A stretch of 64,000 bases of DNA. It comes from Halichondria panicea (Eukaryota > Porifera > Demospongiae > Suberitida > Halichondriidae). Under the pieces are notes generated by a model that saw only the letters and a program-made list of their open reading frames with translations, was not told the DNA's origin and ran no database searches. The stretch spans positions 2,639,525-2,703,524 of the forward strand of contig NC_087378.1 of NCBI RefSeq assembly GCF_963675165.1, written 5' to 3'. Position 1 is the first letter of the stretch; each line of letters starts with the position of its first letter. The position numbers were made by a program, and so were the translations under genes. Below, piece by piece: positions 12,755 through 39,463 of the stretch.

Positions 12755-13079
12755 GCTGTTCATAACAAATGTGTCATGAAAGTGAAGTCTCTGTTGGCAT
12801 GCAGGGCATGCCCCAACCACCAGCTCTACTGGAGTAAGAAGTGGGGAACAAGGTTGCCTCCATTACACAGAGCTTGTTGTGACGGCCACCTTGAGATTGT
12901 AAAGATGCTTGTTACCCATTTATCCGGCCATGGAGCTTGTAGATCTACCTGTTTCACTGATGACGGTGGTGGGGAGGCTAACAGAGCTCCACTTCACTGG
13001 GCATGCTCGGGAGGTCATATCGAGGTGGTGCAGTACTTGATCAAGGAGGTCAACAGCAGCACTGTCAACTGCAGCACTG
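12755..13079 (+). CDS. Ankyrin-repeat protein exon, copy A
   Basis: The exon lies between acceptor ATTAATACAG and donor CTG|GTAAGC. It starts AVHNKCVMKVKSLLACRACP and carries ankyrin repeats with the PLHRACCDGHLEIVKMLV and PLHWACSGGHIEVVQYLI signatures. Ankyrin repeats are helix-turn-helix protein-binding modules. The length (325 nt) leaves phase 1, which joins in frame to the exon at 13669. The exon is homologous to 16694-17047 but lacks its Cys-rich start. No start codon or upstream exon was found, so the 5' end is missing or unrecognised. Its first 50 nt are copied elsewhere in the window. Confidence 0.75.
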
Positions 13080-13325
13080 GTAAGCAGTCGTTACTATTTG
13101 TGCCTCTCGCCATGTTTTTGCTTTCACTCAAAAGTATTAGAGTGTTACTGAAGAGGTAAATAATTTGCAATGTGCTTTGATTGTTTCACAAGAAAGGGGT
13201 GTCCACAGTCAATCCTAACAGTGGGAGCAAACCCTCCAAAGCAGTAGTCTGTGAGATAAGTATTTAGAATTCAATCACAGTTGTGTCTGGTTCAGTTCTG
13301 TTAGCTGACTCTGGGTAGTCTCGAA

Positions 13326-13365
13326 TACCCGCCTCAACCTAAAAGCTTTTAGGTTGAGGCGGGTA
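13326..13365. repeat. Perfect 40-bp palindrome
   Basis: The half TACCCGCCTCAACCTAAAAG is followed immediately by its exact reverse complement, centred on AAGCTT. It lies in the intron of ankyrin copy A and could extrude as a cruciform. Confidence 0.9.
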
Positions 13366-13668
13366 GACTCTGAGATCCTACTTCACTTCTATGCATGAGA
13401 CTCCAGGCTTCTTTGCTGTGATCCTAGTCCACAGTGTATATAAAACTCTGTTCTCAAATGTTTCAGCATGCCTCCAGTCTTGTTAGCTTCCTGAGTTGCT
13501 TGCCTAGACAGTTTAATAAGTCATACATGATATTCATCACTACATGCACTGCATTATATGGTTTCTTTATAATCATGTCATGTCACCAGCCGAGGGTTTG
13601 CACTTTAGTGCTCTAGTGTTAAATCAGATTTCGTGTAACTGACTATCTATAATTATGTTAAATTACAG

Positions 13669-13884
13669 ATGTGAGGGATGATGAGAGACAGTCCCCACTA
13701 GATATAGCTATGGATCCTGACACTCTGCGAGAGAGGGAAGGCTGTTTGGATGTTGCCCTCTACCTGATATGCCGTGGCTGTGGTAGTGATAAGGACAAAG
13801 ACAACTTACTGCATGCAGCATGTTGGTGGGGCAAGCTGGATATAGTGAAAGAACTGGTTGAGCAACACAAAGTTGACCCCGAAA
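13669..13884 (+). CDS. Ankyrin-repeat protein exon, copy A, second exon
   Basis: The exon has acceptor TTACAG and donor GAAA|GTGAGT. It encodes DVRDDERQSPLDIAMD, GCLDVALYLICRGCGSDKD and LLHAACWWGKLDIVKELVEQ: two ankyrin-type repeats with a cysteine-rich loop. It joins in frame to the exon ending at 13079 across a 589-nt intron. Related exons are at 15966-16262 and 17942-18162. Nothing in frame was found for a further exon before the copy B exon 2 kb downstream. Confidence 0.75.
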
Positions 13885-15965
13885 GTGAGTGTTAATTCTA
13901 TTGTGCCTTTGAATGTTCTCTGTAGTATCATATACTGTTCACTACTTGGTAACGACTGCCTGCGCATGCCCCAATCTTACCCCAGTATCTGGAGGCTACA
14001 AATAACAACGTAAATGTTCTGTAAAACAATGACGTCAAGACAGAAAGAAGTAGATTGAAGGAAGTAGATAGAACGGAAATCGAGTGAGCAACTTGTACGC
14101 ACAAGCTTCTAGCCCGGTGGAGGTGCAAAGCTACATAACAATGATAACATAAAGCTACACACATAATATCATTTAACTATGGTCATACAGATTGTAGTAA
14201 ATGACTGCGATCTAGGAGTGCGTCATATCCTAGGCGAGGATATTACTATCTTTTGGCAGTATATCGGTCTAAGCAGATGTCACGTGCCCTGTCACGCTAG
14301 AGGTTAGGGGTCACGTGACTGCGGTAATGTTTTGGGGGAGTACTGAGAGAGGAGCCCCTGCGATTAGCATTAAGCACGTAAGTGTTGGGGGCCCTTATTC
14401 AGCCCCCCAACCAGTATATCAACATCGTCGGATGGAAAATAGGTCTTAACCTCCGTGAATGGGAGGGTGGGAGGCATAAGATTTGAGCAGCCAATTTGTC
14501 TGTGGCTCGCTGACAAGCGGCTGTACTTTAGCACGTGGAACCATGGATGCGCATGTGCGATAGGCATGCATGTGACTGGAAGCCACACCTACGACTGTGT
14601 GATTCGAGGTAAGACCGCGGTTAGTGTATTACCTCGTTAACTACGTTTATTTAACTCCATTAAACTACATGATGAATATTTTTTGTATTATTATTAAAGA
14701 GTGGGTAATGATCAACCACGATTGTTGTTAAAAACGATCTATGCCAAAAGTTCAAGTCTAGCTGCATCAGCAGAGCCTTGCAGCTCTCTTCTCACTGTTG
14801 CAGCTACCAATAGCTAGCGTTCTAGTGCAGAGCTAACTACTAAGTAGAGTAGCAACACTTGGTGAACAAGTTTTGTTACGCACTCTTCTAAAAAGGCTGC
14901 AATGGCATTCCAAGTAAGGAATATCTCGAGAACGAAGCATTATTTTGCAAATCCACAAATTAGAATCTATGACTATAAAAGCCTATGAAACTCTTACTTG
15001 CACTTCATTGATCCTTGAGCAGCTGTAGCAGTCTATACACACACAGACAGACAGACAGACTCAAAAACACACCGTATACATTGCTTGCGCATGTGCACCG
15101 ATGCATAATAATAGACTGAAGTGCTAGTATACTGTATGCGTACACCAAGGCATCAGCACCCGCGCTGCTTTCATGTTTACTATAGTATTGTCATTGTGGT
15201 CTTGTTACTGATGAGGAAAAGGAATGTAATTGCATTGTGTTGCAATAGTCAGGTCAAAGTCCAGTCCAGTCCAGTGTTCCAGTACACCGATTACAGGCAG
15301 CCGAACACCAACAATAGTACCTCAGAAGATTATGATAGAAGATTCCGTAATGTTGTAAGAATCGAAGACTATAATATTATAGGTAAAAACATGAGTTAAT
15401 AGGCAACATTTTGAGCATAATTGGGCAATTAAGGCCTATAATCATTGACCACCTTTATCTGGGTCCAAGCCAGAGGGGTACGTCAATGTCAATAGTTTAC
15501 AAATTAAAACACCACGTGGCCTTATGCAGACGTTTACATATATAACTGAGCTCACCCTCACCACTACTAGCTTCATCACAACAGAAATCAGTTGAGCCCC
15601 AGACGAACCAGCTAGAGAGAAGAGATTACAAGATATGGAAAATTAGCCTTCTTTAGCTAGGGTATAAATTTTGATGTACTGGTTTGCTGCATGCGCTGGA
15701 TAGGCAAATAAACGATCAAAAACAACAGAAGCAGTATATATAGCTGTTATATCCAAGCTAAGGTCAATAATCCAGGACTACAGATGTTTAATGTTTTCGT
15801 TAAAAAGTGACCCTATTGACCTTGGCCTCTGGGTGCAAGTAGCAACCACAAAAGTAGTGCTCTGAATGTTTTAACCCCTCCCCCTCTCCCTGAATTACTC
15901 GCTATAATTATGGTATTCATAAAGCTCTGGTAACACTATGTCTGATAACATTTGGGGTGTTTTAG
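13885..15965. other. Two kb of repeats between ankyrin copies
   Basis: About 13940-14165 carries a reverse-oriented fragment related to the MITE at 26070 (TGCGCATGCCCC, AAGTAGATTGAAGGAAGTAG). A weak open frame at 15121-15399 starts in a hydrophobic stretch and has no recognised domain. The rest shows nothing convincing. Confidence 0.45.
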
Positions 15966-16262
15966 AACTGCCTGTCAATGAATGGAAAGTGGACAAACGG
16001 GAGTATATGTGGAGCGATGAGGAGGGTTTTGATGAAGAAGATGAGGATGAGGATGAGTTACAGTTACCACTGGACAAAGCTCTAGGCCCTGATTATCATG
16101 AGTGCGATAATGAAGAAGGCCGTGTGGATGTTGCCCTCTACCTGATCAACCGTGGCTGTGGATGGAGTATGCACAAGGAAAAGTTACTGTGTGCAGCAAG
16201 TCGATGTGGCAAGCTGGGTGTGGTGAAGGAACTGATAGAGCAACACAAAGTTGACCCCAAGA
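15966..16262 (+). CDS. Ankyrin-repeat protein exon, copy B, with acidic insert
   Basis: The exon has acceptor TTTTAG and donor AAGA|GTGAGT, with the same phases as the copy A and C homologues. It encodes an acidic run (DEEGFDEEDEDEDE) ahead of LPLDKALGPDYHECD, RVDVALYLINRGCGW and KLGVVKELIEQHKVDP. The acidic tract is absent from the two sister exons and may come from GAT/GAG triplet expansion. An ATG at 15938 is in frame just upstream and could serve as a start if the exon is a first exon. Confidence 0.65.
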
Positions 16263-16400
16263 GTGAGTACATGTGATGACCTAGCTACTGTGCTTTTAAA
16301 TGGCCTGTTTAGTATAGCTTTGTAGAGAAGGCCAACTTTAATATCGTTGAGTATATAACACAGCCTCTTCCAGTGTTATAATGTATATACCTTTGTTCAG

Positions 16401-16606
16401 AGGCAACTGATGTGATGATGGCCAGACTGCTCTTGACGTTGCTTATTGGAGTGATCACACTGAAATTGCTGACTACCTCCAATCTCTACCAAACTACGAT
16501 TATGAGTACATGTTGTGGTCCAATGCTCGCTGCACAGCTGCTGTGACTGGTGATAGTGACTCCGGGAGCGAGGAGAATAGACCACCACCAACAAAGAAAC
16601 AAAAAG
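16401..16606 (+). pseudogene. Ankyrin-gene exon, copy B, with 2-bp insertion
   Basis: After acceptor TTGTTCAG the sequence encodes ALDVAYWSDHTEIADYLQ, an ankyrin repeat, and ends with EENRPPPTKKQK before donor GTGACT. Relative to the duplicate at 35197-35335 it has two extra bases (ACTGATGTGATGATGG against ACTGATGATGATGG), which break the frame near the start. Just upstream, 16320-16345 preserves only the tail of the expected preceding exon (VEKANFNI). The copy is probably not functional. The internal donor seen in copy C (CAAC|GTAAGC) has become CAAACTACG, so the intron is read through. Confidence 0.6.
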
Positions 16607-16693
16607 GTGACTTTCTATTTTTTTATTTAATCGAACCTTTACATAATTACCACATACACTGTTACCCCCCCGCCCCCTCACACACCATCACAG

Positions 16694-17047
16694 TATGTCC
16701 TAACTGTGAGGAGAGCTGTCATATCCACTGTGCTCAAAAGACGCTAGCCAAGGACTTATGGGAGGCTGTTCATACAGATGAAGATGTCATCAAAGTAAGG
16801 TCCCTGTTGGGACACGGTGCCTGCCCCAACCACCCGCTCTACTGGAGTGTGGAGTGGGATGAGCTGCCTCCATTACACTGGGCTTGTCTGATGGGCCTCA
16901 TGGCGATTATGAGGACACTTGTTACCCATGGTGCTCGTACTGATAAAGGTGGTGGGAGGGATAACAGACTGCCATTTCACTATGCTTGCGAGGGAGGTCA
17001 TAAAGAGGTGGTGGCATACCTGATCCATGAGGTCAGGTGTAGCACTG
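16694..17047 (+). CDS. Ankyrin-repeat protein exon with Cys/His-rich start, copy C
   Basis: The exon has acceptor ATCACAG and donor CTG|GTAAGT. The start VCPNCEESCHIHCAQ has a C-x2-C-x3-C-x2-H-C spacing that could bind zinc; it is too short to name. It is followed by DVIKVRSLLGHGACPNHP, PLHWACLMGLMAIMRTLV and PFHYACEGGHKEVVAYLI, which are ankyrin repeats. The 5' phase accepts the last base of 16401-16606, so the two exons were once joined across the 87-nt intron. The stretch VIKVRSLLGHGACPNHP is the source of many short copies elsewhere in the window. Confidence 0.75.
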
Positions 17048-17069
17048 GTAAGTAGTCATTGTTATTGTG

Positions 17070-17255
17070 TATCGTATAGCGGGTATAATTATTTCAAGAG
17101 TATAAAACTTTTGCAAAATGACCGTTAGAAAGGTTTTCGCTTTAATTTTCAGCCTTTCTGCGATATTAAATTCGTGGGTATGTTTGCGGTACATGCTTAA
17201 TCATCTAAAACCGCGAACATTTTATACTCTCGAAATATACACGCTATATACGGTA
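17070..17255. mobile_element. MITE in ankyrin intron, TACCGTATAGCG-end family
   Basis: The left end TATCGTATAGCGGGTATAA is inverted relative to the right end TATACACGCTATATACGGTA. The 186-bp element lies within the intron after the Cys-rich ankyrin exon. Confidence 0.7.
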
Positions 17256-17336
17256 TTTCCTCCACATCAATGACTGCAGTAATATCTGTGTGCATAATTA
17301 TTATGATACTTGAATTTAAACTATGTTCCACAACAT

Positions 17337-17416
17337 ATGTGAGGGATAGGAACAGCTGGACCCTTCTTCACTGTGCCTGTGAGAGAGGAAATAAAGAAGT
17401 CGTACAGTATCTGTTG
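17337..17416 (+). pseudogene. Ankyrin exon with damaged splice acceptor, copy C
   Basis: It encodes DVRDRNSWTLLHCACERGNK and EVVQYLL before donor GTGAGA. Sister exons start after CAG|ATGTGAGG; here the acceptor is CAT|ATGTGAGG, so the AG is lost. The 3' phase also fails to match the next exon. A related fragment with an intact CAG is at 33776-33815. Confidence 0.6.
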
Positions 17417-17941
17417 GTGAGATTTAGTGTGCTCTTATTTTTCTCCGTAGCCTCTCCTATACTGTTTGTTCTTGCATTATAGTTGTCATAACCCATCGGA
17501 ATGCAAGTATTTGATTATGGTGGCAATACAGACTTTATAATTATATGTCCAAGCTCAACCTGTCTGCATGGTTTCTAGAAATTAAGATTATAATTATTGG
17601 CACTACTTAATTACTACTGTGCCAACTGGAGCACTGAAGTGCAAACCTCGGCGTTATAATTTGGCCGCATGTAAACATCTAGACCAACGTGCAGGTTAGA
17701 GCTTCTTAGCTTTTGTTCACTTTTGTTCCACAACGAAGCTTTAACATCAAAATGTGCCAAATTTAAAACTATACTATACCTTGTTGTGTTGAGGCTATCC
17801 ATAGTACAAACACAGTGCTATCGCATCCAGATGAGCAGACTCAGAATACACAGAACGACAGACAGACTGACTGACTGACTATAGTATACCCTGTGTGACT
17901 GTTTGTCGCACTCATAACCATGCTAATTTACTGTCTTGCAG

Positions 17942-18162
17942 ATATGATGGATGATTGGGACAGTCACCACTGAACATAGCTCTGAATTCTGACTATCTGT
18001 ATGGCTGTCTGGATGATGGTTGCATGGATGTTGCCCTCTACCTAATGAGCCGTGGCTGTGGTGGTGATGAGCACAAGGCCAAGTTATTGTGTGCAGCATG
18101 TTGGTGGGGCAAGCTGGGTGTGGTGAAACAACTGGTTGAACAAGACAAGGTTGACCCCAAGA
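17942..18162 (+). pseudogene. Ankyrin exon with 1-nt deletion, copy C
   Basis: The exon has acceptor CTTGCAG and donor AAGA|GTGAGT. It encodes GQSPLNIALNSDYLYGC, CMDVALYLMSRGCGGDEHK and LLCAACWWGKLGVVKQLVEQ. Compared with copy A one base is missing before GGACAG, so the normal entry phase runs into a stop. An 85-nt piece of this exon is duplicated at 39465-39545. Confidence 0.65.
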
Positions 18163-18365
18163 GTGAGTTTGATAATCTATTATGCATGCTTAACACATTT
18201 AGACAGATAAAAGGCTAACTAAGCTATCAGTCCAGTCCTTTTCTTGATATGGCCTTTCCCTGCAAAATAGAGCAGTCTAAACATGAGTCAAAATTTGTGC
18301 AATAATTGAAACACACACTTGCACTGTCAATCCTTATGTATAGTACCATGGTGCGTTATGTGCAG

Positions 18366-18735
18366 ATGTGAGGGATAATATCAACAGGACCCCACTCCAC
18401 AATGCATGCGTTCGGGGACACAAAGATGTGGTGCAGTACTTAGTGGAAAAGGCCAACTGTGATATCAGTGAGTACTAGCTCCCAGTGTTATACTTTTGCT
18501 TTACACCACCATTCTTGTTCAGGTGCAACTGACAAAAATGGCGATACTCCTCGTGACATTGCTACACAGCGGGGTTACACTGAAATTGCTGACTTCCTAA
18601 AGCCTCTGCCACAACAACGTAAGCTCACTACGATCATATGTACAGTGTGGTTCAATACAGCTATACTCTCGCTATATACAGCTGCTGTGACTGAAGAGAG
18701 TGAGGAGAATGGACCACCACCAACAAAACAAAAAG
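18366..18735 (+). CDS. Ankyrin-repeat protein, three in-phase exons, copy C
   Basis: Exons 18366-18467, 18523-18618 and 18682-18735 have standard splice sites and compatible phases. They encode DVRDNINRTPLHNACVRGHK-DVVQYLVEKANCDIS, then ATDKNGDTPRDIATQRGYTE-IADFLKPLPQQ (two canonical ankyrin repeats), then AVTEESEENGPPPTKQK, a hydrophilic linker ending in basic residues. The order ankyrin, linker, then exon 19715 is in frame throughout, so this 3' part of copy C could still be translated even though exons further 5' are damaged. Confidence 0.7.
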
Positions 18736-19714
18736 GTGACTAGCTAGCTGTTATTGATCAAAAACCTTATAATTATTGATTCTCATTTATCCTCATTTAT
18801 CGTTTGTCTTACATGTACCACTTTATTATTTTCACTGTTGGAACACTACAATGCATTAACGATTACATTTTTATGAATGGTTAGAGTCTGAAAGAATCAA
18901 GTTATAGTTAGGCCATGCAAAGTCAATTTGTAGTTTCTCAGGCCCTCGCGCTTGGAAATTAGCAGCTTTATAAATATCACGTGACCTCAAATTAAAGGCA
19001 CTAAAAGAAAAGAAAAGGATAAATTTGTATGGTTTTTTGCATGGTCATGAATAATAATTATGACTAATATTGATTAGTAAAAATTATGCACTTCCGCTTA
19101 TTGTGGAAGTTAGGGGTGTGTTTTCAATTAAAATTCTATGAATAATTATCATTATCATCAAATGCCTCAATCCGCTTGCTAATAAAGGTCTTATTATAAC
19201 CTCCACACATGCAACAACGTATACGTATATATATATATGTTGGCTATAGCTGTCGGTAACTGTTGCATAATTGGGTATACATGTATATAATTTACTATAA
19301 TACAAGTAAATATCATGTTGATTCTTGATCACAAGCAGTATTATTATATTTTATATCCCGTTGCTATGTTGTTGCCAAGTGCAATATGAAGCATATATAT
19401 TGCACTGCTGAAAAGTCATATTGCACTGACCACAATATTGCACTGACCACAAAACGCCCCTCTGGCATAATTAATTAAGCAAACAAGTTGGCACTGAACA
19501 TCTACAACCCGGCTGACCCCACCACTCCTCTGCTGAGCCTGGGACCGTGACAAAATGAGGAGAGCAGGCAAACAGGTCAATAGACTAGGCTAGAAATTGT
19601 ATCGTGTGCAACCTTGTAGACAGATAATATTTGGCTGCATAATTATGGTGCATAAGTTTAGCAAGTGATGGATGATTGTGCTTTATATTACATACAACTG
19701 TTGCTCCCCTACAG
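18736..19714. other. Long intron or spacer, AT-rich
   Basis: Holds short repeats such as three ATTGCACTGACCACA-type units near 19415-19455 and an AT run near 19220. No coding exon was recognised. Confidence 0.4.
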
Positions 19715-19820
19715 GTAACCTAGTGTTTGTGGAGATTAGCCGCAGGTGTTACGGTGGTCCAGGGCTGGTGTGGATGTATTCTGGCTTCAATGATGCTCAG
19801 CCTAAGAGAAACACTCCAGA
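19715..19820 (+). CDS. Probable last part of ankyrin protein, copy C (unknown domain)
   Basis: The exon has acceptor CTACAG and donor CCAGA|GTAAGT. It joins in phase to the exon ending at 18735 and encodes GNLVFVEISRRCYGGP then GLVWMYSGFNDAQPKRNTP. I do not recognise the domain. If spliced in phase to 21718 the frame closes after about 14 residues; the alternative frame there is longer. Fragments similar to the preceding ankyrin exons are common in the window, but this exon was seen once. Confidence 0.5.
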
Positions 19821-20690
19821 GTAAGTTAATGGCTTGGTTGAAATAGTGTAATAATTTATGTTTTGAGGTTTAGTGTACTATAATTATGTTTACAACAATC
19901 TTTGAGGTTTTGTTTGCCTGTTTGGCTATTAGGATCTTTTGAAAGATTGTTTTAGCTGCTAAAAAAACTGAATCTAGCTTCACCCCTAAATACTTTTTTG
20001 TAATAGACCAAAACCCCATCCAAAGGTACTTGCTTGCTACTGCTACATTTTTGTCTATGTACAAATAATACTGATGACATATTGATACTAAATCGGCATG
20101 CTATGTGACAGCTGAGCCCACGTCCCCTAGGCCGGGCCTTGTATTGGCATACATGTAATGATTTATGGGGCCCATACTGCTCCTATATACGTCTTTAACC
20201 CTAACCGTGGCCCGTCCACCCAAAAGAAGGGAGGACGGGTTTCAATTCAAGCCTATGTCTAGATTTGTATAGTGCTGCATTTACGTACAGCTTCTTATCA
20301 TTTAGTCATAACGTTGCACATACACTCTTTCCGCCGTTTCACTCCCTCTTGGAAAATATCATCTGGTTGCTATAGCTAAGCCGCATAGTCAATTACGCAT
20401 AGTATAACACAAAACTAATCATAAAATTTGCGCGCCAGGTCATATTAGTGGGTCAGTGTGCGTTTGTGTGTGTATTCTGAGTGTGCATGCATGTTCACCT
20501 TGCTGCCATATAATAATAGTTCTGCATTTACTTACAGCTTCAAAACAACTTATTAGTTTATACATTTAGTCATAAAAGCTATTTTATCTGTTCTTTGACT
20601 TGCTGGAAAAGTATCCTGGCGCATAGCCCTCTGCTCCCTTGGACGTCCCCTTGTACAGATCGCCCTTTTGACACAGATGCTGCAATTTAC

Positions 20691-20959
20691 CTGGGAAATA
20701 GTTTCGAATACTGAAAGTACAAGTTCTTCGAATGATGACCTCTTGTCATCTACGGCTCTCTCCCACGATCCTAGCTCTTCTGGTTCCATTTGTTTCAGGG
20801 TCTCTCTGGCTTCTGTGCACATCTCATCCACCTTTTCATGCGCATTAGTACATTTTATGTCTATTGGTGTTAGAATGTAGTCCGAATCTTGAGGGTATTC
20901 CACAGTGGAGAGGGGTGTGTCCAGTTGTGAATCCTGAAGGGGGGTGATAATGGTCTGCT
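20691..20959 (-). CDS. Unknown exon, acidic helical segment
   Basis: A minus-strand open block between acceptor TTTACCAG and donor CCCAG|GTAAAT. It includes EKVDEMCTEARETLKQME and SWERAVDDKRSSFEELV, likely amphipathic helices. No family was recognised and no neighbouring exon on the same strand is supported, so it may be an orphan piece. Confidence 0.35.
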
Positions 20960-21593: not shown

Positions 21594-21717
21594 CATACGA
21601 TTGATACGTTATTACAATGTATGGTTTCTGTTAGTAGGAGAGGGGACAAATCACATATTTATTTCAGAGCCTACTACAAGTTCATTGTATGTACTTGTTT
21701 TTGTTTTTGTTTTTCAG

Positions 21718-23710: not shown

Positions 23711-24635
23711 AAGCTAAGAACTGAAAATTGATGTACGTGCAGCCAAAGTGTTCGCCACGATTGTACATGGTCATTAATGGTCCTAACAGTGAATCATCGG
23801 AATTGTAAAATCAATTCCGCCCTATAAGAAGCTTTTGACTGTACTCAATAGATTAAATGAGTATATAATATGAGGCATACACAGGAGTTGCATGCCCTCT
23901 TCTCCTCTTCTCTTTAAACGCCCTTGTCTTGGAAATACTACATGTGAGCTTGCAATTTGACATACGTGTAGCATGTTATTTGGAGGGACAATCAAATGAC
24001 ACGCATGTCAGGGTTGAAACAACCCACTTGTTTTTACAGTGCGCGCGCATGCATGCCAGTTATAACAGGGATTGTGAGCGTTAGCCAATAGCAATAGGTC
24101 ATACACCACAGAAATGCGTGTGCAGATTATGGAAAAAATTAATGGTTTCTATACTCAGTATGTAATATAATTATGTAGGCCATGGCAACGAATAATAAAG
24201 AGACCAGAAAGAAAGAAAAAAAGTGGACATGGAGGGGAAGGCCAACTTCGTCTCTGTTGGGACATGCTGAAATCGTGTAATCGAATACCAAGGGAGCTGC
24301 GTCTCAAAATAGAATACAAAAGGAAGGACCACAAAAGAGGAAGTGGCCACTCAAGGTCTGGAATCAAACAAAAAAGAGCTTCCCAACATGCCAGAAGCTT
24401 TTATACCTTCCACAGGCGAAGATAAAACATGCGTTTACACACGAGTATAAACATGGCAAGCTGACAAAAGAGTAATAAGAAAATAATTACAGTACAGTCC
24501 CTATAGGTCAACGGCCTTGTAAATGTTGAAGTAACAATTAAGATTGCATACGCGGAAGAAAAATCTAGCCAAGAGCTTAACAAATTTGCCATCAAAGTGA
24601 AGTCTCTGTTGGGACATGCCCCAACCACCAGCTCT
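23711..24635. repeat. Segmental duplication copy 1 (partner 38544-39463)
   Basis: About 925 bp near-identical to 38544-39463, differing by a few small indels such as a CTTCTCCT insertion near 23900. The last about 45 nt are an ankyrin-exon fragment (ATCAAAGTGAAGTCTCTGTT). Open frames on the minus strand are present in both copies but show no domain. Confidence 0.9.
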
Positions 24636-25291
24636 TAAGCCTCGGGTAATGCCACATTGTGCAATCAAGAAAGAAGATGAACCTCGAATAAGCCTCGGGT
24701 AATGAGGTTGGGAACGCCATATCAAAGACTCTGCTGGCAAGGCTAAGGGAAGTTTGACAACAAGAAGGAGCTAATCAGACAGAAGCTCAGCTCGTCCGAT
24801 TAGAAAAATACACACAGAGTGCATGCATCTCAATTACTGAGAAATTGTTCCCAGCAATAACTAAGATTATGGGGTCTGCACTAAAATACTTCATGCACAG
24901 ATTATTATTATTATACCCTCCATCCAAAATCTAGCCAAGAGCTTAAAAAATTTGCCATCAAAGTGAAGTCTCTGTTGGGACATGCCCCAACCACCAGCTC
25001 TTAAGCCTCGGGTAATGCCACATTGTGCAATCAAGAAAGAAGATGAACCTCGAATAAGCCTCGGGTAATGAGGTTGGGAACGCCATATCAAAGACTCTGC
25101 TGGCAAGGCTAAGGGAAGTTTGACAACAAGAAGGAGCTAATCAGACAGAAGCTCAGCTCGTCCGATTAGAAAAATACACACAGAGTGCATGCATCTCAAT
25201 TACTGAGAAATTGTTCCCAGCAATAACTAAGATTATGGGGTCTGCACTAAAATACTTCATGCACAGATTATTATTATTATACCCTCCATTC
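24562..25291. repeat. 366-bp tandem duplication containing an ankyrin-exon fragment
   Basis: The unit AATCTAGCCAAGAGCTTAAC...ATTATTATACCCTCCAT occurs at 24562-24927 and again at 24928-25291, nearly unchanged. Each unit opens with the same ankyrin fragment. Confidence 0.9.
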
Positions 25292-25446
25292 GGAAGCGTA
25301 GGGGGGATCGCGTTCTTGCTGTACAGGTCTGTATTCATCCATTTAGAGGAAAACGTACTTGGCCACTACAACCAAGGTTAAACGCCAAATATTGTGAGTT
25401 CTATATGAGTTGTTTGCAAACAGGTATATTTTTATTTTTAATGCAG

Positions 25447-25568
25447 CTCTTGCTCAACAATCTCAAACAAGAGTGCCTCTCAAACCTGAACATGTGATTG
25501 GTCTCCCTTCTGGCATTACCCTGAGGCATCCTTCCAACATGTGTAGGGAGAATTTGCAACTTGTTTAC
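25447..25568 (+). CDS. Unknown single exon
   Basis: The block lies between acceptor AATGCAG and donor TTTAC|GTAAGC. It is open in the frame LAQQSQTRVPLKPEHVIGLP then SGITLRHPSNMCRENLQLVY. No domain and no adjoining exon were recognised, so it may be an orphan fragment. Confidence 0.3.
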
Positions 25569-25964
25569 GTAAGCTGCTTGTTCAATGAATGTATACTGTT
25601 CAATCAATCTACATGCATATAGGAGTCATTGACTGAGACCATTACCATGCCTGTAGGTTACTAGCCTCGATCCCAGTCCGCTCTTCGTATCTACCCATAA
25701 TTATATCGGGTTTAGAACACTATAGTCACCTCAACATACTAATACTTTGTCACGTGGAAGTTCAACACTTTTTGCGTGTCTTTTAATAATTAGCTTTCAT
25801 AGTCTCAATAGCGTTCAATAGCGATTTATGTGAAAATTCGCAATCAAAAAACGTTGTGTTCGAAACCCAATCTATATGTGTACATGCACCCTACAGTATG
25901 TATCAAGCACACATGCAACTAAAAATTAATGTGTCTAAATTGTATGTATGTATAGAACACGTAC

Positions 25965-25992
25965 GCGCGCGCACACACACACACACACACAC
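25965..25992 (+). repeat. (CG/CA)n microsatellite
   Basis: A CGCGCGCACACA run whose right flank matches that of the CA run at 12371-12414. Confidence 0.85.
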
Positions 25993-26069
25993 TAACATCT
26001 ATTTATTTTGACTTTAATGGCGAATCCATCTATAGATCTTGTACATGTAACTACAAGCCACAAAACACC

Positions 26070-26608
26070 TAGCCTCCTTCACCGGCCTTTGAAAGAAGGC
26101 CTGCTATCGACTGCTTGCGCATGCACCAAATTATTGGATTTTTTCCCGTAAATATTCCTATAATACTGGATACATCAGAGAAAATATCCTAAAAGTCATA
26201 TACACAGAGTTATATAGCTAGCTAGCTAGAGACAGAGCTGTGTAGGTTTGTTGTACTGCTATTTTCTTCTGATAGAATCAGTAGCAGTAGTATAGTAGAC
26301 TTTCACCAAAGTTAGTGTTAAATGGGCGTGGCCTGTCCATATATGCTCTTATCAGCCGCCATTCCTTTCAGACGATCGTCATCCACACTGTTGCAGGCTG
26401 TGAGTCTTTTGTTAACATAGCAGGCTAAGGGTAGCTATCAGAGAATGCTATCCGATGGGCTAGAAACCTTCAATCGAACTTTCTATCTACTTCCTTCAAT
26501 CCACTTCCTTTCGTTGTGATGTCATAGTTTTACTGAGCATAAACGATGTTATCCAAAGCCCCCAGATACCGGGGGGATATTAGCGCATGCGCAAGCAGTC
26601 GATACCAG
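26070..26608. mobile_element. MITE of TAGCCTCC / TATCGACTGCTTGCGC type, copy 1
   Basis: Near-identical to 55661-56218. Internal arms TATCGACTGCTTGCGCATGC and GCATGCGCAAGCAGTCGATA are inverted. The right end is cut at GATACCAG and joined to the 248-bp repeat block. Confidence 0.8.
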
Positions 26609-26857
26609 TAGCTTGATAGCTAGCTAGGATTAGCCTCCTTTGCGGGTTCTCAATAAGAATTAATTAATTAATAATTAATACAGGCTGTTCATAACAAATG
26701 TGTCATGAAAGTGAAGTCTCTGTTGGCATGCCCACTTCCCTAGTGGGAAGTGCGGCCTGGGATCGAGGCTACAAAACACCTAAACGTAAGATTTGTACAA
26801 TAAACCGTCAATTGAATGTCCTTCATGCTTCAGCGGGCGTTCCATCCAACCCAGTTA
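26609..26857 (+). repeat. Second copy of 248-bp block with ankyrin acceptor and exon start
   Basis: Same sequence as 12099-12346. Its right edge abuts the LINE ORF1 fragment. Confidence 0.85.
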
Positions 26858-28506: not shown

Positions 28507-29347
28507 CATAGATACACGAAAGAAAGGGATAGGCAACACCCAGCACTTTCGTTGGATGAGGCGAGTTGCTAAAAAGGGGCGTGTAATGAACAAAAAGGGG
28601 TGTGTGCACTCAAAATGTCAGTAAAGAGTTTGTAGTATTATAGCAAACTGTGCTCTTGAGGAGACACCAGATACACTTAGACATAGGCTATTAATCTTTT
28701 AGAGCTGCTATATGCAAAGTGATGAGAAAGTGAGCTCCAAAGGGGGTGTCAGTACACTCTACAAACCATAACAGGTCTGTTCCCAAGTCCTTCAAATGCC
28801 ATCTCTTTGATCACACAATACAGATAAAGATACTTGTGTTCCACTTTCTAATACCTAAACTGTGTCTTAGAGCACTTCAAACTAGATTACCATGTACAGT
28901 AAGAGCAGGAGAGGTACGCAAACTTTCTGGACTTCGGACAAACGTTTCATGGTGCTGCTACTACTTCACTGCATTGAGAGCTGGAAAATATGCTTTGTTC
29001 CATGCAGTTATAAACACACTTTAATTCTGTGTAACGCACATGTTATAAAATTATTTCATATTGGAGATATAGGTACATAAACTGACAAATCGGTCTTTTT
29101 TCACACAAATCAAGCCGAATAAAAGAAAGCTCGCCACTAAGATAGCAACTGTAGCTATCAGTAGTGCTGGGTGTATGTGTGCATGATGCCTGATTGCTTT
29201 GAATTTCTCTTTTAGGCCCCCTACGAGAAAAATAAGCAGATATAGGGATCATTGTGTACTTTCTTGAGCGCAACTCGCCTCCAACCAGAGGGTGTGACGT
29301 CACACACTGCATTTATCTAGCATCATGTGGGGCGTTGCCTATCCCTT
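28507..29347. mobile_element. 841-bp insertion in the LINE endonuclease, 6-bp target duplication
   Basis: TCAGAG occurs at 28501-28506 and 29348-29353. The ends contain AAAGGGATAGGCAAC and its reverse complement. Removing the insert and one duplication restores the LINE frame across TLIRDHLKLCLG. Blocks at 28540-28640 and 28915-29030 recur in reverse orientation in the loop of the 10.4-12.0 kb palindrome, and 28804-28893 recurs at 39542-39632. Confidence 0.8.
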
Positions 29348-29353
29348 TCAGAG

Positions 29354-31308: not shown

Positions 31309-31612
31309 AGGCCACTCCAAATGAGACTGTAGTTTCCCGTCAGAGACTCTAGTAAATTATATGCGGGTGTGAGCAGGATTATTCATTACTATGAATCTCA
31401 TTATAAATGTGGTGCATCATCAATGAATTTAATTAATCACCCACAAAAATGTTACTATACACACATACACCCACAAACAGAACAAGAAAAAAGTAATTTC
31501 AATATTTCATTGGATAATTAGAGAAATAATGGCCATAATGACTATTTAATGCGGTAGCTAAAGCAGGAAGCGCGAGTTGGACGGGAAACTACAGTCTCAT
31601 TTGGAGTGGCCT
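31309..31612. mobile_element. 304-bp MITE with 33-bp inverted ends
   Basis: The left end AGGCCACTCCAAATGAGACT and right end AGTCTCATTTGGAGTGGCCT are exact reverse complements and continue through GTAGTTTCCCGTC. Nested within the piggyBac-like element. Confidence 0.85.
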
Positions 31613-31721
31613 AAAAAACTTTTTTTTGGTTTTATCTCACTGCTGGCCGGGCATTTAAAATGATAAAAACGGGTGGGCGTAAATAGCAACACATGTTGCA
31701 CCATTTTATTCCTTGTTGTAT

Positions 31722-32207
31722 TTTTTTTTTTTTTTTTTTTAATTAAAGTTACTCATGTAGGGTACTAATCTAGGCAAGACAAAATAATAAAGATTACAAC
31801 AAGAAAAACAAAAACAAAAATTATACAAAAAGGAAAAATATACTTGTTAGTCCATTTGGCATAAGTGTGCCTCGGCCGACACCAAATCCATTTGTGGGAT
31901 GGTCTTGATGGCGCGACCACGGGAGGACCGGGAGCCTCGAACACATTGTATAGCAGATCTGAGCAGACTATATGATAGGGAGCATCTTAGCCAGTTTATG
32001 ACCTGGTGGTATGGTTGGTCCCATTTCTCAGCTAGGAGGGAAGCCAATCTTTTGTAGAACACTGTTGCTTCTTTTCCTAGCCCCCCACTTGCGGAGAGCA
32101 CTAAGGGGGTGAAGGACGCATGTTCCACCTCCCTCACTCTTTGCTCATAGGCTCTTTTCTTCTCTAGTTCGTGTTTTCTGAAGCACTGCTCCAGGCTCGT
32201 GTTCCTG
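31722..32207 (-). mobile_element. 5'-truncated retroelement insertion with poly(A) and 13-bp target duplication
   Basis: Read on the minus strand, a coding tail (YEQRVREVEHASFTPLVLSA, LGKEATVFYKRLASLLAEKW, WLRCSLSYSLLRSAIQCVRG) stops at 31849-31847 and is followed by a poly(A) run (T tract 31722-31740). TTCCTTGTTGTAT is duplicated at 31709-31721 and 32208-32220. These are the marks of target-primed reverse transcription with 5' truncation. The tail belongs to the same retroelement domain as the fragments at 22.1 and 34.5 kb. Confidence 0.85.
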
Positions 32208-32336
32208 TTCCTTGTTGTATGGGCATTCTATTGGTATATGGTTGCTAGGCATTTTATTGCTCTGGAAACCCGATAGAGAATAAACAGACATTTCACTTTT
32301 TGCTGTTAATTAAGAATCCAACGGTTAAAGGGTTAA

Positions 32337-32662
32337 CCTAGAAACTGGCAAATCTATGGGCATATCTCCTAAAATGCTAAAAAGTACTGCAGAAAATAGT
32401 GCCTCTCCACTTGCAATGTTGTTTAATTTATCAATCAGCACAGGTAATTACCCTTCAGGTTCCCGTACCCAAGAGTGGTGATCCATCACTTCGAAAAACA
32501 CGTGAAAGCACTTCTGGAGGAGCACATGAAATTACATTCACCAATTTCCCCAAGGCAATGGGGCTTTATGTCGTCACGTTCAACTGTGTCAGCTCTCATT
32601 CAAGTGATTGATGACTGGAGCAGGGCTGTCGACGGGGGATATGAGGTCTGTATTGTATTTTA
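32337..32662 (+). pseudogene. LINE reverse-transcriptase fragments
   Basis: LETGKSMGISPKMLKSTAEN, PLAMLFNLSISTGNYPSG and, after a deletion and shift near 32470, KHVKALLEEHMKLHSPISP, QWGFMSSRSTVSALIQVIDD and GYEVCIVF. These match the start of the fingers region and the GF..gRST..ai segment before the first catalytic Asp. The FADD box is absent because the copy ends at 32662. Confidence 0.75.
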
Positions 32663-34379
32663 ATATTATGGCGAGTGTCATACCACAGCCGCCGGGTAAT
32701 ATGCCTTCTCCTTTTAAAAGAAAAATCATAATATCGATGCACATTCAAGGTTGCTAATGCCCCATTTTATTTCTGCAGGCAGCCATCGTTCCAATCCTCT
32801 AAATGTGAAGTTCATTGCCTGGCAACTGAGGGACATTTTTCTTATTACAAGAATTTTAGAAGGCCAGCGAATATGTAGGTCCTTTGTTTCTTAAAGATGA
32901 AGATGTCATCAAAGTAAGGTCCCTGTTGGGACACAGTGCCTGCCCCAACCACCCCCAATCTGCTTTTCTGATCTATTATAATCGATAATTAGAAGGAGAA
33001 ATGGATGCATTATAAAATGTGTATATATGGCCAGAGAAAAGACAACAAGGATGAATGGAGTATATCTATAGTAAGTGCGCAGTATCTGGCTGGACCAGCT
33101 AGTCACACTATGATTATAATATAGTATCTATACTGAGAGGAGTGTCACTCCTGTATAGAGATAAGAGATGCCAAGAGGCAGCAATATGCTACCGTGAGGT
33201 AACGGCCCCAATCCAGGAATTAATGGAGCAGCTGTGCGCTCAAGTAAGTACAGTGTACAGAGAGAAAAGATTCCAAGATGCGACAATGCTAGACGTAGCT
33301 ATGAAAAATAATGGTTCGTTGTGGATGCTCATTTGAGATTATAGTATGGCAAGTGGCATACCACGGTCTTATGACGACAGTATAGTAATTATAGTATGAC
33401 ATTTTGAAAGGAAAAATTTATTTTACAACACAAGAATTTTAGATGGCCAGCGCCAAAGCTCAAAAGCTCAAAAGGAAAACAGGAGTACCTGTTTTACATG
33501 TGCTCACTCGCCACTTCTGCGGTAGGTGATATTCTCACACTCGACATGTTTATTAAATTGACAGTGATGGTCTGTATGACACTGTGTATTATACACCTGT
33601 GCAGGTCCTTCGTTCTCTGAGAACTATTATGAATACAAGGCAGTGGTTTTGAATGGTCGTCGCCTGGTCCCTCCACCCCATCAAGTGTGAGCATTAGCAG
33701 TTTTCACACTGTTTTTCCCAATGTAGGCATTGTCATTTTTGTGTCGAAGCCCTCATACGATAAAACAGTTTAACAGATGTGAGAGATAGGAATAACTGGA
33801 CTCTTCTTCACTCATACTCTGATGAATGTAACTAATCATAAGTTTAAAATAAAAATGAAGAGACAAATGTTCTTGAAGCAGTCAAACGCAAACAAAAAAA
33901 TCATGCGTGTATATACGTTTGTTGTGGGTTTATGGTTTACACACACATTGAGTGTCAGTGAACACAGATATGCACAGTTGTGCACATTAAAACACACTAA
34001 AAATTACCAGTGAAAAGTAGTGCACTATTTAACACACCATTTTAACAATGTATATAGTGCAACAAGGCATACACTGCAAAAAAGGCTTCTTTAAAACAAA
34101 ATAATAATTATTATCATTATTTTTATAAAAATGGATGAATGGAGTATATCTGGATGCGATACTCATTCATAAAGATGAAGATGTCATCAAAGTAAGGACA
34201 CGGTGCCTGCCCCAACCACCCCCTGATCTAGAAGGAGAAATGGATGTGTCCAGACAATATGTGCTAACTGTGAGAAAAGCTCTGTCAAGTGTCCCGAATG
34301 TCCCGAATGTACATGTGAGCACGTGAATCCCTTCAATAAAAAAAAACAGTACAAGTATTATGCAGAAAAGGGCAACTGA
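32663..34379. other. Mosaic of repeat pieces and short ankyrin-exon copies
   Basis: 32663-32880 resembles 12550-12680 (GAGTGTCATACCA, ATTACAAGAATTTTAGA). 32899-32957 copies the ankyrin exon start (GATGTCATCAAAGTAAGGTC). 33776-33815 copies another ankyrin exon (CAG|ATGTGAGAGATAGGAATAA). 34172-34222 holds a third copy, followed by a Cys-rich frame CANCEKSSVKCPECPECTC. No intact gene. Confidence 0.55.
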
Positions 34380-34455
34380 AGAAAAGAGAGGTCAGTAAGG
34401 ACAACAGGAACATACAAGAAGAAGAAGCAGCCTCTATACATCAACAGCTACCGGA

Positions 34456-34592
34456 CGGGCTCCAGAAGGCAGTGGAGCTATCCAAGACAAAAGGAGCCTC
34501 CACTTGGCTCACGGTTCTCCCACTATCGGAACATGGATTCACACTACACAAGTCGGCCTTCCAAGATGCCCTAGCACTACACTGTAAAAACG
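34456..34592 (+). mobile_element. Retroelement C-terminal domain fragment (STWLT segment)
   Basis: The frame [40 protein letters not shown] is the segment that normally precedes the CxCG...HALSC part. It breaks off at 34592 against unrelated repeat sequence. Confidence 0.6.
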
Positions 34593-35176
34593 GAGGTGGG
34601 AAAGTCCCACCAATGTTCAGTCACACCATGGGTGTAACGTCACACTTGCATCAAATGGTGGGATACTCCCACTCCATGTCTGGTGTAAACACTTCTAGGT
34701 GTGTGATTCCCACCAAAATTAATTAATGATATAGACCATGCATGTACCCAATTACGTAACCGCACAAGGGATAGTATTAAAAGCTACATGACTGTGGTGT
34801 ATTCATATTTCACTCGTTTTATTATGTGACAACAATAATAATATTAAACAGTTAATCAATGATTTGTGGCAGAAAGTATTTTAGTGGTAGATCCAAGTTT
34901 GAAACATGATATAAACCAAGAACGTGATGGTCAACAAAGTATACCTCTTACACTGGTGGTGTGCATTTTAAGTCTATTTATTGTTTGTTTATTCTTGCAG
35001 AGTGTTTCTGAAGATGTTTCCACCAGTACCAAGGATGACAGTGGATTGGCTTATAGCAGCTCAGGTGTTGATGTCGAAGACAATACAGTTAGTATATCAC
35101 TCCATATGGCGTATGTTTTTTACAGAGTGACAGTGGTAACGAGAGAACCATCATCATTGATCATACCGTGTTATAA

Positions 35177-35335
35177 TGTATATACCTTTGTTCAGAGGCA
35201 ACTGATGATGATGGCCAGACTGCTCTTGACGTTGCTTATTGGAGTGATCACACTGAAATTGTTGACTGAAATTACCTCCAATCTCTACCAAACTACGATT
35301 ATGAGTACATGTTGTGGTCCAACCCTAACCCTGCC
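35177..35335 (+). repeat. Duplicate of ankyrin copy-B exon region (16375-16520)
   Basis: Starts in intron sequence (GTTATAATGTATATACCTTT), includes the acceptor TTGTTCAG and encodes ATDDDGQTALDVAYWSDHTE. This copy lacks the 2-bp insertion present at 16.4 kb but has a small insertion near 35268. Confidence 0.85.
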
Positions 35336-35425
35336 AACATGACAACGATAAAAGAAATGACTGGTGCTCCTCGGAAGGCATACAGGTTCGTAAAAGCTGT
35401 CAGCTTAAGTTACTAAATTTTATAG

Positions 35426-36424
35426 TCGTGTGGCTGATGCCGATAGTATCAAGCCATCATTCCTCTCTCCGTATACTGGAAAACTTGTGCACTTCGTCAT
35501 TTGCCCCAGCCACCAGGTTTGTAGTAACGAACGTGTGTACTCACGCGCTCACACAGCTGAAAAATATGATTTCAACTCTCTTTCAATCAAGACCCGCAAA
35601 ACGTGGGGGTACAAGAGCATTCAAAGTCGGTAATGTCACCTTTGGTTGGTCGATCATTGAAGATATGTACTCAAGAGAAGTATCTCGTATCCAAGCTAGC
35701 CAGTGCTCAAGAGTGCCCAAACTCAAAAAGAGCTACATAATTCGAGACTCATGGACCCGACTAAACGTATTACCGTCCAAGGTTATGCAGGTAATTATTA
35801 GTGTACAGGTCATGCACCACTTTGCAATTTTAATATACTTTTAACACCAAGATGAAGTGCTAGCCGAATTAAGAGAATATGCTCGTAGTGATCCTAAACC
35901 GAAAGATGCTCCCAGTGTGGAAATGATTATTGAATATATCTATCTTAGGTACAAAAGTGAGAGTTTTTGAGAAAGATGGAACTACAATATGCAGAATGAC
36001 GGAAGGATTCGAATTCTTCACACAGTGGGCAAAAGAGAGCGAAAAAGATGAAGATAAACGAACATTTTTGGCATGGCAGGTAAATGGCTGTAATTATGGA
36101 TACATGTATACATACAAACACACACACACACAGACCTGGGATTTGATGCGTATCATGTGGTATGGCCTAGTTAATGACTTCACTACCTCTAACCCTGGCT
36201 ACTATATCAACCCCAGAAGAGTAAATGGCAGCGCTACAGAGACAATTTTTGGACAGCTAAAGCAGACCACAAGCAGTAATCTAACCGCAGCTAATTATGA
36301 AACAGCTAAGGCAACTCTCCTTACAAAACAACAGTCAAGTTCCAAAGACGGTGAACAGTATCGATCAGCTAAACTGTATTTGAGACAGTCGAACTTATCA
36401 AAGGAGACCAATTATATACAATAA
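35426..36424 (+). pseudogene. DDE-type (P-element/THAP9-like) transposase, C-terminal exons
   Basis: Exons 35426-35516, 35557-35790, 35852-36079 and 36134-36424 have GT..AG borders. Segments: DADSIKPSFLSPYTGKLVHF; GTRAFKVGNVTFGWSIIEDM and RDSWTRLNVLPSKVMQ; GFEFFTQWAKES and FLAWQ; TWDLMRIMWYGLVNDF and RVNGSATETIFGQLKQTTSS, ending at TAA. The pattern NGSA.E..FGQLK..... resembles the C-terminal end of P-element/THAP9-type transposases (inference from pattern). Within the third exon the frame changes between IIEYIYL and GTKVRVFEKDGT (about 35925-35945), so this copy is probably broken. N-terminal THAP and catalytic parts were not found; the exon before it is a captured ankyrin copy. Confidence 0.55.
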
Positions 36425-37119
36425 TTATTTATTAGTTTCAAAAGGAGGCGATTTGCAATTGCAGATCCGCAATGTCAATTTTTTAAGGGGGGAATAAAGC
36501 CCAAGAAATAAATAACATAAATAATAAATACTGAGGGGAAAAATTGCCTGAGGCCGTCATTTAATGCGCACGACCCCTCACTCAAATACGTAATGCACCC
36601 ATTCTACTTTTATATCAAACGTTGAACTGTAATTGTTAGTGTGTTGGATCACAGGCCAAGCGATCATTTAATCACTGAATTGTCATTCATCAATCATCAC
36701 TTTTTGTAGATTTACAATGACAATGTATGTCTCGAGTTGTATAATTGTATAAAGCTTAATTAAGAGCCGTATGTGAAAATGAACATGCATGGCAATACAT
36801 ATAAAACGTGCACTTATTAAAATACACAACAATGTTCAGTTTGGCTCAAAACAATCAGGCAGCTGTTCCGTATGAGATGCATCGTTGATTGTCCCCTTGC
36901 AATAAGCCCGCTTGAACTATAGCATTCTATCAGGAAAATTAAATTATAAGAGGTGTCGTTTTCTTCAATATCGATATTACGATGTTGTCTAACACATACT
37001 TTGAAGCAATTAATTTGTTGACCATATCCTCCACATAGTAACAGCTACTAAATACACAAATGGAAGAACTCAAAACATTCCGGTAAGAACAAAAGAAAAG
37101 TTAACAAAATGAACTGCTT
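36425..37119. other. AT-rich, nothing recognised
   Basis: No coding exon, repeat arm or RNA gene could be supported on either strand. Confidence 0.4.
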
Positions 37120-37181
37120 TCAGGCTATAGCTGAAGCTGAAGCACCATAATCAGAACAATATTCAACATCATCACAATATA

Positions 37182-37637
37182 TTATATATATATATAAGTT
37201 GTAGATACGAAACTGCTCTTTGTATGGCTGTACCAGTAGCTGGACGATGACAAAAACATGGTACATATGAGATAGCAATGAATATTTCGTGAGAGGGCGA
37301 ACAAGACAAACATAATGATATGAGAGAGAAAGAACGTTATAGAAAAGCATCGACAGTCACGAGTTCCATTTGTCCCGTCCTTGTAGTAACCTTGATAACA
37401 GTAAACAAACATATCAACGTGTTGACGCTGAATTTTAAACTTGTTCAGAACTCGTTGAAACCAACGCATTGGATAGATGACAAGAAATACAAGTGGAAAG
37501 ATAATCACCAAGATCAAAACAAACAAAGCAGTGATAGCGTAGGGAAGGTGTTCTTTACTGAAGTAATCCACAGATGAGAGAACATAGCGGACACTATACT
37601 CTTTAATCCTGAGACAAATCAAGCCTTCCAAACCTGA
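37182..37637 (-). pseudogene. Multipass membrane protein fragment (YKDGTNGTRDCR motif)
   Basis: After acceptor TACTTTCAG (minus strand) the frame encodes a membrane helix (YAITALFVLILVIIFPLVFL), the segment RWFQRVLNKFKIQRQHVD, the motif CYQGYYKDGTNGTRDCR and a second hydrophobic helix (ITFFLSHIIMFVLFAL). The motif and layout are known to me from the membrane C-termini of large receptor-like proteins in sponges and other early animals; function is unknown. Near 37255 the frame shifts to one reading VQLLVQPYKEQFRIYN, the expected continuation, so the copy is damaged or misassembled. Ectodomain exons were not seen. Confidence 0.5.
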
Positions 37638-38543
37638 AAGTAATTTCTTTTACTCCACAATCACACTGGAAGTGAAAACTTACTCCCATTCCACCGTCTA
37701 AAGTAGTTCGTTTTTCTAGTGGTACAAATAGAAGTAATTACTAAACTTTCAGTGTAAACAAAGGTTAATTTATAGCTCACAAGTCATTTCTGCGCATGGG
37801 CATCTGAAGGCCAAACAAGACCAAGCAGCAGACCGCAGAGGTCCTTAGTGATGTGAGCTCAGGCAAGCACTTTCGGTCACTTTCGGCCGTAACAAACCAC
37901 CACACCTTGCACAAAAGTACTGTACGTGTTTGGGTTCGAGACTCTTAAACGAATTGTGTAGTTTTATGTACTGAATCCCCTGAGCAACCACTAATTAGAT
38001 CTAACCCACCACCCCCCGCGTCTGCTCTCACGTTACAGGTGTATTTGAGTACCAGAGAGTCACCATCACAGATCAACAAAGTTATTGGGAAACAACACAC
38101 ATGTCTTATAATACTGTTACAAAAAGCACATAATTGTCGTGGTCAACGAATCAGTCCAAGAAGAGGAGGGGCATAACCTGTTGAAAAATAATTGAAATCA
38201 CCCATTTAGGGAGTTAAAATGATGTACGCAAGCAGCTAACCTAAAGTCTGTCAATTTGTCACACTACATGGTCCGTACTAAACAGACAGTTCGTAGACAT
38301 TCCTCTTCTTCAATGAGTTAGCCAAGGTAGAGAAGCTAGTCGCGCGGAAAAAAATCTAGCCAAGAGCTTAATATGGGCTGTTCGTACATCAAAGTGAAGT
38401 CTGTTGGGACATGCCCCAACCACCAGCTCTATACTATATTAACACATATACTGTAAAAAGAGATGTGCCATTTATAGCATGCGTGTATAGCGTGTTACAC
38501 ATGTGTCAAACTGCTTAAACGGCTGACTGCAGAACTTTTAAAC
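37638..38543. other. Spacer with one ankyrin-fragment cassette
   Basis: 38349-38432 carries AATCTAGCCAAGAGCTTA followed by a shortened ankyrin fragment (CATCAAAGTGAAGTCTGTTG). No gene was found. Confidence 0.5.
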
Positions 38544-39463
38544 AAGCTAAGAACTGAAAATTGATGTACGTGCAGCCAAAGTGTTCGCCACGATTGTACA
38601 TGGTCATTAATGGTCCTAACAGTGAATCATCGGAATTGTAAAATCAATTCCGCCCTATAAGAAGCTTTTGACTGTACTCAATAGATTAAATGAGTATATA
38701 ATATGAGGCATACACAGGAGTTGCATGCCCTCTTCTCTTTATACGCCCTTGTCTTGGAAATACTACATGTGAGCTTTGCAATTTGACATACGTGTAGCAT
38801 GTTATTTGGAGGGACAATCAAATGACACGCATGTCAGGGTTGAAACAACCCACTTGTTTTTACAGTGCGCGCGCATGCATGCCAGTTATAACAGGGATTG
38901 TGAGCGTTAGCCAATAGCAATAGGTCATACACCACAGAAATGCGTGTGCAGATTATGGAAAAAATTAATGGTTTCTATACTCAGTATGTAATATAATTAT
39001 GTAGGCCATGGCAACGAATAATAAAGAGACCAGAAAGAAAGAAAAAAAGTGGACATGGAGGGGAAGGCCAACTTCGTCTCTGTTGGGACATGCTGAAATC
39101 GTGTAATCGAATACCAAGGGAGCTGCGTCTCAAAATAGAATACAAAAGGAAGGACCACAAAAGAGGAAGTGGCCACTCAAGGTCTGGAATCAAACAAAAA
39201 AGAGCTTCCCAACATGCCAGAAGCTTTTATACCTTCCACAGGCGAAGATAAAACATGCGTTTACACACGAGTATAAACATGGCAAGCTGACAAAAGAGTA
39301 ATAAGAAAATAATTACAGTACAGTCCCTATAGGTCAACGGCCTTGTAAATGTTGAAGTAACAATTAAGATTGCATGCACGCGGAAGAAAAATCTAGCCAA
39401 GAGCTTAACAAATTTGCCATCAAAGTGAAGTCTCTGTTGGGACATGCCCCAACCACCAGCTCT
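38544..39463. repeat. Segmental duplication copy 2 (partner 23711-24635)
   Basis: Near-identical to the 23.7-24.6 kb block, with the same terminal ankyrin fragment. Confidence 0.9.

Follow-up and report, generated by a model that had tools for sequence, protein, structure and literature searches.

The window analysed here is a stretch of 64,000 nt from Halichondria panicea (C2:2639525-2703524), which was compared to a genome of 131 Mb in 39 contigs. Short related pieces of an ankyrin exon, termed cassettes, recur in this window. By a seed search with 100 shuffles as control, the seed was found with 0 to 3 mismatches at positions 12193, 12775, 16788, 24590, 24956, 26704, 32907 and 39418, compared to a mean of 0.00 in the shuffled window. 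Two further copies, at 34176 and 38388, were found to be genuine and internally deleted, such that all ten copies listed in an earlier note on this DNA are present. The left flank which that note described as common to four copies, AATCTAGCCAAGAGCTTA, was likewise confirmed by four exact occurrences (0.07 expected from shuffles), and TTAATACAG was found to be common to three copies (12193, 12775 and 26704), which are identical over 80 nt. The features are collected in Table 1. Also detected in the window were a long imperfect inverted repeat (10389-12006, 84%) with 20-bp tandem arrays in its arms and two tandem arrays, one with a 119-bp unit in 10.7 copies (41890-43159) and the other with an 80-bp unit in 14.1 copies (52544-53668).

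Table 1. Ankyrin cassettes, repair-type inserts and the TIR element, in positions of the window.
Feature	Position	Strand	Details
80-nt copy (R) of 12723-12802, cassette 12193	12141..12220	+	within 250-nt stretch identical to 26608-26857
Exon 1 of truncated ankyrin gene copy, cassette 12775	12746..13066	+	C5 homology begins at 12746
Paralogous ankyrin family exon, cassette 16788	16727..17055	+	
Cassette X, exon-1 fragment (~nt 76-184 of C5 exon), small deletions	24550..24635	+	
366-bp tandem duplication, source of cassette 24956	24560..25289	+	
TIR element MITE-1, 702 nt	26070..26771	+	perfect 9-bp target duplication CAAAACACC
118-nt filler inside MITE-1, carries cassette 26704	26609..26726	+	
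16788-type exon fragment, cassette 32907	32888..32954	+	95.5% identical to 16769-16835
Second 16788-type exon fragment, cassette 34176, internal deletion	34166..34224	+	
3-kb duplicate block	36435..39463	+	partial copies at C2:4638996-4641093, C1:8216701-8219208, C2:4745390-4747474
Cassette Y (38388), decayed exon-1 5' end, ATG at 38268	38267..38431	+	reads MVRTKQTVRRHSSS, then stop
Second copy of cassette X (39418)	39377..39463	+	
83-nt fragment of another ankyrin exon (like 17957-18039), second template	39465..39547	+	
96-nt fragment like 28797-28891, third template	39540..39635	+	

The seed was found to lie inside an ankyrin-repeat exon (Pfam Ank_2). In a paralog on the minus strand at C5:2.644 Mb, this exon is open from its ATG to a donor-like GTAAGC and reads MARTKQTARKHSSSNYELAKVEKLATLKKKLAKSLIQAVRNKYVTKVKSLLACGACPNHQLYW... 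The homologue of AATCTAGCCAAGAGCTTA is GCTAGCCAAGAGCTTAATACAGGCTG in the C5 paralog and GCTAGCCAAGGACTTATGGGAGGCTG in the 16788 gene. Thus, the left flank that had been considered foreign represents the 5' portion of the exon itself, which the C5 paralog retains intact as ordinary exon sequence AAGCTAGCCAAGAGCTTAATACAG, to which GCTAGCCAAGGACTTATGGGAGGC of the 16788 gene is homologous. The earlier note had further assigned an intronic acceptor to two copies. The sequence in question, TTAATACAG, occurs in three copies and is in-frame coding sequence in the C5 gene, a status that rules it out as an ancestral acceptor. An acceptor-like TTTTGTACAG was found upstream of CTAGCC in two C1 family members (both of the members examined over that stretch). 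Since the flank is exon sequence and TTAATACAG is coding in the C5 gene, both arguments for a foreign mobile piece fall, while the copies themselves and the four-fold flank stand. The cassettes appear from their sequence to derive, as truncated and decayed pieces, from the 5' end of the first exon (or of a homologous exon) in ankyrin-repeat genes. The exon of cassette 12775 is without the 5' part (H3-like tail and linker) and has the AT-rich junction AATAAGAATTAATTAATTAATAA in its place.

The same ankyrin exon belongs to a very large family, with at least 152 matches (best 150 of 1175 candidates scored); many of the matches listed are on C1, and others are on C5, C6 and elsewhere. A scan for exon pieces, covering the window outside 12-19.5 kb, revealed exon starts in seven places and parts of other exons in two, every one of them between 20 and 41.5 kb; the piece at 34166 was found by the window-gene query only. 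Pieces of two other ankyrin exons (35168-35322 and 39465-39547) and of introns are also scattered, and exon starts are therefore not the only parts affected. When presumed single events were merged by our judgement (24550, 24944, 38267 and 39377 as one; 32900 and 34166 as one), exon starts stood at three versus two for other exons, and a preference for exon starts was accordingly set aside. A Pfam search of the frames at 34.3-36.4 kb gave nothing above cut-off.

We examined the copies for colinearity with other loci, the rule being one partner block that reaches at least 60 nt past the seed on both sides. By this approach, eight of the ten copies were found in blocks of 1.2-8 kb that are colinear on both sides with another locus (seven by comparison of fetched loci, and 16788 by the separate colinearity of window 12000-20000). 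Of the remaining two, copy 24956 is a 366-bp tandem duplicate, and copy 39418 has colinearity on one side only, over 2 kb to its left. Colinear partners of window 12000-20000 are C8:3771568-3779591 and, at 99% and split into two pieces with 419 bp between them, C2:4626786-4635247. Window 31463-34374, 34905-36431 and 39633-41336 match C2:4.7315-4.7385 Mb, and window 23.7-29.5 kb together with 37388-39463 matches C2:4.7405-4.7475 Mb. Identities of 98-99% across 2-8 kb at C8, C2 and C1 mark these blocks as segmental duplications. An ankyrin exon piece (like 16373-16523) was found to be partly duplicated in the C2:4.73-Mb copy (local 3520-3818).

A genome-wide search with the 76-nt X cassette, a query that does not reach the 16788-type copies, gave 18 matches, 7 in the window and 11 elsewhere. 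Nine of the latter are in block copies, one is the C5 gene and one is dispersed (C1:4174010). One block-copy locus holds four of the matches, two of them in recombined order, and a further 12193-type copy, beyond the 18, was detected in a block-copy locus. The dispersed copy has no flank in common with the window, and block duplication does not account for it; further short pieces of window 32.9-33.8 kb were found in its vicinity, at C1:4.16-4.22 Mb. Tandem or segmental duplication with colinear flanks, which the earlier note named as the finding that would overturn its proposal, thus largely holds for the copies in the window; the C1:4174010 copy, which lies outside the window, is not covered by it.

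A second type of event was observed at window 36432-39632, which occupies the place of 718 bp in the C2:4.73-Mb copy. In that copy a 272-codon frame runs across the site. By contrast, in the window the same frame ends at the joint. Because the frame is uninterrupted at C2:4.73 Mb and cut here, the window was taken as the derived state. The severed portion lies at window 39634-40086 on the minus strand, and it continues in the C2:4.73-Mb copy. The insert is a chain of the 3-kb block and the second and third templates of Table 1, and at its joints neighbouring parts overlap by 1 nt, by 3 nt or, imperfectly, by a few nt, with about 3 nt of filler also present. Judged by these joints and the order of its parts, the chain has the look of template switching during repair. 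Copies 38388 and 39418 are explained by this patchwork insert: both cassettes, X and Y, adjoin the sequence of window 24636-26857 in the C2:4.74-Mb copy. Within the block, window 36776-37600 contains a fragment with nine matches, at 81-84%, to a tandem gene family located at C5:2.158-2.202 Mb.

The patchwork insert also bears on whether the pieces are merely degenerate remains of old tandem ankyrin gene arrays, formed in the absence of any insertion events. The large size of the exon family is in keeping with such an origin, as are the pieces of 80-290 nt that window 32.9-33.8 kb and C1:4.16-4.22 Mb have in common. However, both the three-template insert and the filler of the TIR element MITE-1 (see below) are insertions when compared to uninterrupted copies, and at these two sites the reading is refuted. 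For 32907 and 34176 it may hold; as an account of the pieces in general we consider it improbable.

One exon start was found within a TIR element, MITE-1. Both ends of this element read TAGCCTC inward, and a 32-nt inner inverted match has 30 identities. Perfect 9-bp target duplications were observed in all eight of the element copies read, a length that presumably points towards a Mutator-like element; the seven further copies are 571-595 nt. The filler consists of about 56 nt like another repeat followed by the ankyrin exon start, its right joint shares two nt (GC), and next to no MITE-1 sequence was lost. With TIRs, a target duplication and an internal fragment from a non-TE locus, the element has the make-up of a Pack-TIR, and its filler represents one real Pack-TIR-like capture of the exon start. 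The stretches 12097-12346 and 26608-26857 are identical over 250 nt that include the right end of the element with the same right flank and target duplication, and for this reason the 12193 copy was considered a duplicate of the MITE-1 site and not a second landing. A donor-like exon (12723-12802) lies 0.58 kb from the 12193 copy.

The location of an exon start in a TIR element whose 9-bp target duplication is perfect invites the explanation that the element, once loaded, transposed as a multicopy Pack-TIR and so spread the copies. However, the filler was found to be absent from all 25 other element copies among the matches listed and from all seven other copies read (six of which are also among the 25), and the filler copies at 12k and 26k agree in their right flank and right target duplication. 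Furthermore, the genome yielded five 42-nt matches of the filler type (the 12k and 26k copies and three in block copies), such that, among the matches found, the filler occurs only in block duplicates, and cassettes X and Y lie outside the MITE-1 element. Spread by such transposition is thus very unlikely. Of the earlier proposal that a repeat captured the exon and later spread it as a mobile cassette, the capture is borne out for the 12193/26704 type; the spread is not supported, in view of the uninterrupted element copies listed and of filler-bearing sites that, as far as found, are block copies.

Equally hard to sustain is the view that a Helitron (or a Helitron-like element) took up the exon start and spread copies by rolling-circle transposition, a reading that we regard as having very little chance of being correct. 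Helitrons are present in this genome (21 matches to PF14214, 19 of them over cut-off), three of the matches being in frames of more than 1,300 aa, two of which have a stop inside the match, and the exon start as single-stranded DNA has a predicted fold that was beaten by only 1 of 200 shuffles. Helitron ends are constant, with 5' TC and 3' CTRR near a hairpin, and insertion occurs between A and T without target duplication. By contrast, the block with X and Y was found to have neither constant nor Helitron-type ends, for which the earlier note had advised a check. In the window its left end is at 36435; the C2:4.64- and C1:8.2-Mb copies extend beyond this point to the left, and the C2:4.75-Mb copy begins at 37388; the right end of the block is at 38537, 38934 or 39463; and the right limit of the cassette is CAGCTCT, not CTRR. 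Position 36435 was also tried as an element end and rejected, as the C2:4.639- and C1:8.217-Mb copies share sequence further left. Comparison of the window to four Helitron loci (4 of the 21 places) revealed five short common stretches, none of them over a cassette; clean element ends were not obtained from these four loci, and hence no end consensus.

Taken together, the scatter is probably the product, in the main, of large-block duplication and of local repair with templated insertion, with one paste inside a TIR element. According to this account, large blocks would have been duplicated between the window and C8:3.77, C2:4.62-4.75 and C1:8.2 Mb, and short pieces of about 60-190 nt would have been pasted nearby by break repair with templated insertion, in which templates are switched at little microhomology; one such paste, inside a TIR element, would have given the one Pack-TIR-like copy. 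Directly observed are the colinearity of the blocks, the filler within MITE-1 and the insertion of three templates in place of 718 bp, by which an open frame is cut. From these we infer which repair pathway was at work, in which direction the short pieces were copied and in what order some of the steps took place, and also a templated-insert origin for the pairs Y/X, 12193/12775 and 32907/34176. Breaks at hairpins such as the exon-start fold are a guess.

Several observations count against this account. Three copies (38430, 24635 and 39463) share the right limit ...CAGCTCT and then continue into different flanks, a common end point that is not predicted by random repair. Cassette Y starts 7 nt upstream of the ATG, which would be a coincidence under repair. 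Y and X (38343-38430 and 39379-39463) are 84.6% alike and form direct repeats around about 950 bp, an arrangement that might resemble element ends; the blocks at C2:4.64 and C1:8.2 Mb contain Y and stop short of X. The C1:4174010 copy, with no flank common to the window, likewise counts against the account. Under duplication and templated repair, the idea of a mobile cassette would dissolve into these two processes, plus a single Pack-TIR-like capture that is legible at base resolution.

A by-product of this analysis may be of more weight than the cassette scatter. The C5 ankyrin gene (C5:2644349-2644782, minus strand) has a first exon that encodes M-ARTKQTARK, an exact histone H3 tail. The nine residues ARTKQTARK directly follow the Met, as in H3, and are themselves followed by H in place of S; the start codon is uncertain, because another in-frame ATG lies 11 codons upstream. 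The genome was searched for the pattern M-[A/V]-R-T-K-Q-T-[A/V]-R, with the backward pattern as control. Eight places were found, compared to 0 for the control, and these were three histone H3 genes, the C5 ankyrin gene and four copies of cassette Y. The H3 gene on C17 was matched for its first part only and probably has an intron after this part. Compared to the three H3 genes, the C5 gene has 6, 8 and 7 nt differences in its first ten codons, and every one of them is silent; of single changes in those codons, 26% would be silent. Silent-only differences could also be explained by an H3 donor gene that was not seen.

Cassette Y (38268) was found to be a decayed version of the C5 exon start, and the C1:4174010 copy has the V and R changes of cassette Y. 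With H3 as outgroup, the tail of the C5 gene would be the original state. As read from the alignment, C5 exon 1 and the window copy differ by six amino-acid changes, two silent changes and a 6-nt indel, and so no constraint is shown for the shared part of the exon. We tentatively suggest that the cassettes could be the debris of an ankyrin gene that acquired an exact H3 tail, the one intact copy, on C5, being a selected, working mimic and duplicates of its first exon decaying in the window and elsewhere. A literature search for an ankyrin H3 mimic gave none on point among the matches listed. If expressed, the C5 gene would provide a natural test of the role of the H3 tail outside the nucleosome.

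EHMT2 (G9a) itself has ankyrin repeats. The predicted C5 protein is similar to cases of histone mimicry, such as the non-histone substrates of EHMT2 described in the consulted part of PMC10611923, in that it has an H3 motif which includes ARK at K9. Unlike the substrates in that part of the source, the C5 protein, as predicted from its gene, would match nine residues right after the Met.

The insert at 36432-39632 is similar to the MMBIR-type templated insertions of PMC8421209, as far as the consulted text of that report describes them, in being a chain of short templates at a deletion site with little microhomology at the joints. It differs from the insertions in that text in that the window insert is a genomic structure only, from which a pathway may be proposed. 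The MITE-1 capture may be compared to single-copy animal Pack-TIRs, of which, according to the section of PMC8277862 used here, 56.9% are within 15 kb of the parental copy and 67.6% have microhomology, with a median of 2 bp. Like the elements of that section, MITE-1 has a non-TE filler with a donor-like copy less than 15 kb away, a joint that shares 2 nt and next to no loss of element sequence. Unlike the single-copy elements as that section presents them, MITE-1 has a filler in which about 56 nt of another repeat precede the exon piece, and copies of its site later arose by block duplication.
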